Shown one piece after another: positions 7,755 through 19,400 of a DNA stretch of 33,223 bases; positions within the stretch are counted from its first letter, which is position 1, and the number at the start of each line of letters is the position of its first letter. Source of the stretch: Thermococcus sp. (GTDB lineage Archaea > Methanobacteriota_B > Thermococci > Thermococcales > Thermococcaceae); the NCBI GenBank assembly GCA_027074805.1, contig JALTCK010000045.1:1-33223 (forward strand), in the 5' to 3' direction. Position numbers and translations under genes: made by a program. A model generated the notes under the pieces. The model was not told where the DNA came from and searched no databases. It saw only the letters and a list, made by a program, of their open reading frames with translations.

Positions 7755-8852
7755 TTACTTGAAGCACGCCTCCAGTATCGGGTCGGGAATCACGTAGTAA
7801 ACGTTCCTCCCCTCGATCCTTTTCTCAAGGAAAGAGGAATCAACCAGTCCCTTAAGGAGCCTCGCTAGCACGCTGTCGGCTATGCTCTTGCCCTCCTTTC
7901 TTTCTAAGTGCTCCTTTATCTCCTCCCACGTCCGTTTTCCACTCGCTATAGCCCGCATTATCTCGACGTACCGATCCCTCGCCGCCGACCTTTTCATCAG
8001 GAAGTTCTCGAACTCGCTCATCGCGAGCGCCTTTGCCTCCTCGAAGACTTCATCTATGAGCCCCTGGGATATGCCCTTCTCCATCACCTTCCTCCCGAAG
8101 AGGACGAGCCAGCCGACTATACCGTCAAGCCTCTCAACGGCGTCTTCGATGAGCTTTTCCGGTGGGCTTATATCCACCTGCTCGAACCCCTTCAACAGGA
8201 AGTCCATGCTCTGCTCCGGGGTAAAACGGGACAGGCTCACCTCGTGGAAGTACCGTCCGTAGAGCGGCGCTTTGGGGTCATCGACCCCGAGGTAGTCGTG
8301 GAGCAGGCCCACTTCAGAACCCGGCATGACAATTCTCAGCTCAGAGTAGTCGTAGAGGTGTGCTATCAAACCCGCGAACTCACTGCCAACAGGCCCTCTG
8401 AGATACTGAACCTCATCGAAGGCCAGAACGACGTTGTATTTCTCCAGTTCCCTAAAGAGGGCTATTAGGTCGGTCTTCTCCTCTTTCCAGGAGAAGCTCA
8501 CACCAAAGCCGAGAAGCCGGAGGCCGGAGATGTTTTTGAGGTTCCCTTTGACCTCTTCCCAGATTCCACGGTTCTCGCGGAAGAACGTGTTGACGGCGCT
8601 CTCTATCCTCTTGTAGACGTCCATGCGGGAGTTCGGGTTCACGCCCCTAAAGTCCACGAGGATGTAGGGGAGGTCAAGCTCGTTGAGGCCAACGAGGAGG
8701 AGGGAGGTCTTTCCAAGCCTTCTTATGCCGGTGATGACCGTAAGCGGGTTGTTGGACTTCAGGGAGTTCTCAAACTCTCTCAGTTCACCTTCCCTGTCGT
8801 ACAAATCCTCCCGCCTTCTCTTCGGGCGGGTGTCGAAGTACACAACTACCAC
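7755..8852 (-). CDS. Archaeal ATPase (PF01637-type AAA/STAND NTPase) with C-terminal winged-helix-like region
   Basis: Walker A GIRRLGKTSLL, Walker B NVVLAFDEVQYL. Consecutive GTG codons at 8852 and 8843 make the start uncertain. Confidence 0.88.
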   Translation of the reverse strand: MVVVYFDTRPKRRREDLYDREGELREFENSLKSNNPLTVITGIRRLGKTSLLLVGLNELDLPYILVDFRGVNPNSRMDVYKRIESAVNTFFRENRGIWEEVKGNLKNISGLRLLGFGVSFSWKEEKTDLIALFRELEKYNVVLAFDEVQYLRGPVGSEFAGLIAHLYDYSELRIVMPGSEVGLLHDYLGVDDPKAPLYGRYFHEVSLSRFTPEQSMDFLLKGFEQVDISPPEKLIEDAVERLDGIVGWLVLFGRKVMEKGISQGLIDEVFEEAKALAMSEFENFLMKRSAARDRYVEIMRAIASGKRTWEEIKEHLERKEGKSIADSVLARLLKGLVDSSFLEKRIEGRNVYYVIPDPILEACFK

Positions 8853-8907: not shown

Positions 8908-8965
8908 CGGCGATGACGAGCCCTGGAGTGGCTGACCCGTGATGACGGGCATACTGGCCGAGCCG
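8908..8965 (+). ncRNA. Box C/D sRNA (candidate 1)
   Basis: Stem CGGC/GCCG; box C ATGACGA (8913-8919); 12-nt guide; D' CTGA (8932-8935); 3-nt spacer; C' GTGATGA (8939-8945); 12-nt guide; D CCGA (8958-8961). TATA-like TTATAAG ~25 bp upstream. Confidence 0.83.
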
Positions 8966-9001
8966 CTAGGCTTTTAACTCCCTTTTGGCGAGGATGAAAA
9001 C

Positions 9002-9069
9002 GAGCGATGACGAGCTCTAGGGTATCTGAACCGCGCGGGCGGAAGTGATGATAGAATAGAGCTGAGCTC
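9002..9069 (+). ncRNA. Box C/D sRNA (candidate 2)
   Basis: Stem GAGC/GCTC; box C ATGACGA (9007-9013); 12-nt guide; D' CTGA (9026-9029); 15-nt spacer; C' GTGATGA (9045-9051); 10-nt guide; D CTGA (9062-9065); followed by CTCTTTT. Confidence 0.83.
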
Positions 9070-9121: not shown

Positions 9122-9526
9122 TCAGAGGCTCTTGAGGTACTCAGCGTAGGCTTCCGCATCCATGAGCTCCTTGAGCTCCTCGTCGAGGTTGCTCGGCTTG
9201 AGCTTGGCTATCCAGTTCTCGTAGGAGTCCTCGTTGAGAAGCTCCGGGCTGTCCTCAAGTTCTTCGTTGACCTCGACGACCTCCCCGCTGACCGGGGCGT
9301 AGACCTCGCTGACGGCCTTGACGCTCTCCAGCTCGCAGAGGACGTCGCCCTTGCTGAACTCGGTTCCGACCTCGGGGAGCTCGACGTACGCTAAATCACC
9401 CAGCTCCTTCTGGGCGTAGTCGCTTATTCCGACGAGAACCGTCCCGTCCTCAAGGACCTGGGCCCACTCGTGGTCCTTCGTGTAGTAAAGGCCCTCCTTA
9501 ACCTTGTATTCGCCGACTTCAATCAT
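9122..9526 (-). CDS. gcvH: Glycine cleavage system H protein
   Basis: MIEVGEYKVKEGLYYTKDHEWAQVLEDGTVLVGISDYAQKELGDLAYVELPEVG...; lipoyl region ESVKAVSEVYAPVSGEVVEVN. Confidence 0.95.
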   Translation of the reverse strand: MIEVGEYKVKEGLYYTKDHEWAQVLEDGTVLVGISDYAQKELGDLAYVELPEVGTEFSKGDVLCELESVKAVSEVYAPVSGEVVEVNEELEDSPELLNEDSYENWIAKLKPSNLDEELKELMDAEAYAEYLKSL

Positions 9527-9621
9527 GAACATCACCGATTCTCGTAGGAAGCGCAGGAATTTAAACCTTTCCATGAGCGCGGGGGTTTGAGCCTATCTCC
9601 CAGGGAATGGACATAAAATTC

Positions 9622-19342: not shown

Positions 19343-19400
19343 CCGGAATGAAGAAAAGCCCTAACTGATAAGTGATGAGCGGTTGGGGCTTACTGACCGG
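19343..19400 (+). ncRNA. Possible box C/D sRNA (candidate 3), or simple hairpin between convergent genes
   Basis: Stem CCGG/CCGG; C-like ATGAAGA (19348-19354); D' CTGA (19365-19368); 3-nt spacer; C' GTGATGA (19372-19378); D CTGA (19393-19396). The two guides are also mutually complementary. Confidence 0.42.

Follow-up and report, generated by a model that had tools for sequence, protein, structure and literature searches.

The small RNA described here, sRNA2, lies in a 33,223-nucleotide stretch of Thermococcus sp. DNA (contig JALTCK010000045.1; the window), and it raises the question of whether a C/D box sRNA with 15 nt between boxes D' and C' can still use its internal guide. The symmetric placing of L7Ae and Nop5 in archaeal C/D RNPs is thought to depend on a compact internal k-loop, and a short C'/D' k-loop (about 3-8 nt) is usual for archaeal C/D sRNAs, though not strictly defining. 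The hairpin spacer of sRNA2 is longer than this, and the initial annotation of the locus had suggested that the internal unit might be inactive. The features of the locus are as follows:

8909-8963, +, neighbouring C/D box sRNA (candidate 1, sRNA1), Rfam sR51 (RF01305), 39.3 bits with a gathering cut-off of 38; D'-C' spacer 3 nt
8972-8977, +, TATA-like promoter element TTTTAA of sRNA2; centre about 27 bp upstream of the sRNA start
9002-9069, +, C/D box sRNA (sRNA2), ortholog of T. kodakarensis sR38
9002-9005, +, terminal stem, 5' half GAGC; pairs with GCTC at 9066-9069
9006-9013, +, box C GATGACGA; GATGA[C/A]GA in 73 of 80 orthologs
9014-9025, +, D' guide GCTCTAGGGTAT; positions 2-11 upstream of D' predicted to pair with 23S UACCCUGGGG
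9026-9029, +, box D' CTGA; in every ortholog found
9030-9044, +, D'-C' spacer ACCGCGCGGGCGGAA, 15 nt; CCGC 9031-9034, loop GCGG 9035-9038, GCGG 9039-9042
9045-9051, +, box C' GTGATGA; [AG]TGATGA in 79 of 80 orthologs
9052-9061, +, D guide TAGAATAGAG; not conserved, probably targetless
9062-9065, +, box D CTGA; CCGA or CGGA in 39 of 78 orthologs
9066-9069, +, terminal stem, 3' half GCTC; forms a 4-bp stem with GAGC

Anatomy and Conservation of sRNA2

Rereading of the sequence confirmed all four boxes, both guides, the spacer and the terminal stem at 9002-9069. Boxes C, D', C' and D follow each other in this order with guides of 10-12 nt, as expected of an archaeal C/D sRNA, and boxes C and D are joined by the terminal stem (GAGC/GCTC, 4 bp). 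The RNA is encoded between an ATPase_2 gene (7755-8852, minus strand) and a gcvH gene (9122-9574, minus strand), and a weak CTCTTTT tail is found 3' of it. When it comes to Rfam, sRNA2 is below the cut-off of every family, the best being sR1 with 16 bits against a gathering cut-off of 45; by gathering cut-off it is not a member of sR51, sR1 or RF00095. In the free RNA, AGCTCTA in the D' guide region (9013-9019) can pair with TAGAGCT (9057-9063), which comprises the end of the D guide and the CT of box D, and several orthologs retain a weaker CTCT/AGAG match.

The window contains three copies of the four-box pattern with terminal stem, and 200 dinucleotide shuffles did not produce a single one. 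An ortholog of sRNA2 could be parsed in 80 of 94 Thermococcaceae genomes by a DNA search, and transcripts of the T. kodakarensis ortholog have been published (see below); against these observations there is virtually no chance that the motif is a fortuitous match rather than an RNA. sRNA2, proposed as a C/D box sRNA in the initial annotation, is thus a real small RNA that is widely conserved in Thermococcus and its relatives.

The different parts of the RNA are not conserved to the same degree. All 80 parsed orthologs share an unchanged D' guide core, which the parsing pattern itself had demanded, and unchanged boxes D' and C', while the spacer, the D guide and box D vary. A looser search allowing up to three substitutions in 22 nt gave the same D' guide invariance, with the limit that orthologs with a guide changed beyond this would escape both searches. 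A collection-wide pattern scan gave mostly unrelated chance matches in bacteria, because the pattern was loose.

Promoter and Expression

The strongest conserved signal upstream of sRNA2, as judged from 79 orthologs, is a T/A-rich block at about -29 to -24. Expression data are available in the literature for T. kodakarensis, where sR38 (1167276-1167338, 63 nt) was seen by RNA-seq with 11,287 reads (PMC9014305, Table 1). The first base of the ortholog found in genome G024 is 1167338, which is exactly the published end coordinate of sR38. G024 was identified as T. kodakarensis KOD1 by coordinates, namely this end and the 16S and 23S rRNA genes lying inside the published rRNA interval. The ortholog is thus a stable small transcript in published RNA-seq, and 106 circular reads of sR38 were reported in the wild type versus none in an RNA-ligase knockout (PMC9014305). 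The boxes and the D' guide of sR38 are the same as those of sRNA2, but in sR38 the spacer is 6 nt long (TTGATA) and forms no hairpin, and box D reads CCGA, whereas sRNA2 has the 15-nt hairpin spacer and CTGA.

The D' Guide and Its Predicted Target

The conserved element of sRNA2 is the D' guide (CUCUAGGGUAU). Its positions 2-11 (CUCUAGGGUA) are complementary to 23S UACCCUGGGG over 10 bp, including two G-U pairs and with position 1 mismatched, and the duplex energy is -14.3 kcal/mol. The target was read in relatives, as rRNA is absent from the assembly of the window's own genome, and the site is present in six of the six LSU genes compared. Position 5 of the guide is G9021, which forms a Watson-Crick G-C pair with the rRNA, as required of a C/D guide, and which selects a predicted Cm2441 (E. 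coli numbering) in the 23S context CUAC[C]CUGGGG; the number was counted from A2451. The D' guide target is probably, but not certainly, the 23S site CUACCCUGGGG with Cm at about 2441 as the predicted product, and sRNA2 would most likely direct a methyl mark adjoining the catalytic centre of the ribosome.

The two G-U pairs and the mismatch at position 1 are reasons for caution, as is the fact that 19 of 300 shuffled guides match somewhere in rRNA as well as the D' guide does. The assignment therefore leans on the behaviour of positions 10 and 12 and on a dual guide in a sister genus. Among the orthologs, position 10 faces a G and varies between U and C alone, and thus obeys the duplex, while any of the four bases can occupy position 12, which lies beyond the duplex. 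In five genomes of the sister genus (g3, probably Pyrococcus) an sRNA matching Rfam RF00095 carries the same guide (CCCTAGGGTAT) with C at position 10, and hence has the 23S site in common with sRNA2. It differs from sRNA2 in using this sequence as its D guide and in having a short spacer, and its D' guide pairs with 23S CTAGCGAACC, 50 nt upstream, which is present in five of six compared LSU genes. Archaeal sRNAs typically carry dual guides to nearby sites (PMC7994747).

The target sequence predicted in the initial annotation was nearly right, but not in its exact form, ATACCCTAGAG; the likely site is the 23S sequence given above. Neither the window's genome nor most of the other genomes contain an exact match to ATACCCTAGAG apart from the complement of the sRNA itself. 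No ATACCC-like site was found in the tRNAs recovered from three relatives, a set that did not contain tRNA-Trp.

It is quite unlikely that the conserved segment instead targets another site, for instance UUAGAUACCC in 16S h24, or that it acts as a folding chaperone without methylation. A segment of sRNA2, GGGUAUCUGA, is complementary to 16S rRNA over 10 nt, but the pairing consumes box D' itself and was rejected for that reason. It also leaves the conservation of guide positions 7-11 unexplained, while the pairing with 23S lies in the expected register, respects the expected boundary and agrees with the dual guide of the sister genus. With the 23S site as the preferred target, sR38 of T. kodakarensis is now tied to a specific predicted position beside the peptidyl-transferase centre.

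The D Guide and Box D

Conservation does not extend to the D guide. It is A-rich or of the GGTCAA type in relatives and TAGAATAGAG in the window, and the sequence of box D in the orthologs is CTGA (39), CCGA (31) or CGGA (8). A target had been predicted for the D guide, but the prediction gained no support. The rRNA pairings obtained with TAGAATAGAG and with the older TGGTCAAAGC type were all weak or contained mismatches. This older type, GGTCAA followed by 3-4 nt and box D CTGA, is common to several genera (for example orthologs L102, L105, and L011), and no rRNA target was found for it. By sequence comparison the D guide of sRNA2 has drifted and probably lacks a target. CCGA is not by itself the mark of a dead D guide, because the sR51-like neighbour retains its D guide (GGGCATACTGG) in relatives despite having box D CCGA.

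The D'-C' Spacer

The spacer had been described as unusually long and as able to form a mini-hairpin, and both points were upheld. The 15 nt are real, compared with 3-4 nt in nearly all other genera, and they fold into a hairpin that has a 4-bp stem (CCGC/GCGG), the loop GCGG and an energy of -7.0 kcal/mol. Comparison of the orthologous loci, which the annotation had called for, gave spacers of 3-7 nt in 49 of the 80 orthologs and of 11-24 nt in the remaining 31. Other genera have spacers of 3-4 nt (7 nt in one case), while within the genus the range is 3-24 nt. The lengths found (3, 4, 6, 7, 11-16, 18, 19, and 21-24 nt) are not multiples of three, and the region is therefore not coding. For comparison, the D'-C' spacers of published T. 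kodakarensis sRNAs are, on a by-eye reading, mostly 3 nt and at most about 8 nt.

About a third of the genomes have a hairpin-type linker, and this is the one unusual trait of the RNA. A stem of 4-7 contiguous bp is formed in 22 of the 27 distinct spacers of at least 11 nt, and the other five have 2-3 bp. Three of six stem pairs have changed on both sides (C-G to U-A). The stem covariation score, which can be inflated by relatedness, is 0.36. Shuffles gave 0.20, with none of 500 reaching the observed score, and slid controls did not go above 0.18. When folded singly and compared with mononucleotide shuffles most, but not all, of the spacers are significant. The spacer loop is thus free to change, yet its long forms are usually closed into a hairpin. 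The stem is separated from D' by 0-2 nt and from C' by 0-7 nt, and canonical k-turn geometry is therefore not strictly kept.

Since archaeal D'-C' spacers are usually short, and mostly 3 nt in T. kodakarensis, the long spacer might have broken the C'/D' unit, so that sRNA2 acts only through the terminal C/D unit and the D guide. This is highly improbable. Even the 31 orthologs with spacers of 11-24 nt, which are mostly hairpins, retain the D' guide together with boxes D' and C', while it is the D guide that varies freely and box D that is CCGA or CGGA in half of the orthologs. The pattern of conservation suggests that the proposed inactivity of the internal unit probably had matters backwards.

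A different possibility is that the hairpin serves a separate purpose, as a protein site or a regulatory element, beyond joining D' and C'. In favour of this, the stem recurs as CCGCG or CTGCG and covaries. However, a gcvH tree of 30 genomes implies at least six switches between hairpin and short loop on branches with good support, while the rest of the RNA stays constant; gcvH is one short gene and may depart from the species tree. Supported sister pairs (G033/G044 and G026/G039) differ in having a hairpin or a short loop, and in the first pair the hairpin is cleanly present in G044 (23 nt) and cleanly absent from G033 (4 nt). One would not expect a needed function to be lost this readily, and a separate role for the hairpin is thus unlikely.

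A Proposed Natural Replacement of the Internal K-Loop

The best and simplest reading of the long spacer, judged from the sequence comparisons, is that a k-loop has been replaced by a k-turn-like element. A replacement of this kind has been engineered in P. furiosus sR26, where the apical k-loop was exchanged for a more stable k-turn (st-sR26) in order to keep the RNP stable, and the oligomeric state was unchanged (PMC7089733, eLife 2020). St-sR26 is a laboratory construct, while in the orthologs of sRNA2 the exchange seems to be natural and repeated.

We consider it likely that sRNA2 is a 2'-O-methylation guide with its own TATA promoter, that its D' guide acts on 23S at about C2441, and that the hairpin spacer preserves this activity. 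In the proposed mechanism sRNA2 would be transcribed from its own TATA promoter, would probably be circularised by RNA ligase, and would assemble with L7Ae, Nop5, and fibrillarin. Positions 2-11 of the D' guide would then pair with the 23S site, and fibrillarin would methylate the C opposite guide position 5 (about C2441 in E. coli), a few nucleotides from peptidyl-transferase residues. The D side would be a drifted guide, retained mainly to complete a symmetric RNP. The long spacer would be a natural swap of the short C'/D' k-loop for a hairpin-capped k-turn-like element that holds D' and C' together, so that guide activity is preserved.

A wider claim, which we regard as about evenly balanced, is that one orthologous guide RNA repeatedly and reversibly exchanges a 3-nt k-loop for a hairpin-capped k-turn at C'/D' within one genus, with the D' guide fixed and the D guide decaying. 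If true, the orthologs would make up a natural series of single-guide sRNAs for probing the needs of the internal site. The range from a 3-nt loop to a 24-nt hairpin with an unchanged target guide points to a natural flexibility of this site, and it provides variants for structural work.

Neighbouring C/D Box sRNAs

The initial annotation placed sRNA2 in tandem with a second C/D box sRNA, and this holds. The RNA at 8909-8963 is a member of sR51 (RF01305), which sRNA2 itself does not match at the cut-off, and an sR51-like RNA is found just upstream in 48 of the 80 sRNA2 orthologs; the pair thus occurs often, but not always, together. A shared precursor does not seem to be needed, since a conserved TATA-like box belongs to sRNA2 alone and sRNA2 is also found where sRNA1 is absent.

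A third C/D box sRNA candidate is found at 19343-19400 on the plus strand, with the order ATGAAGA-AAAGCCCTAA-CTGA-TAA-GTGATGA-GCGGTTGGGGCTTA-CTGA and a 4-bp stem. It adjoins the 3' end of a convergent gene, and partial matches to it are present in 3 of 20 genomes of the genus.
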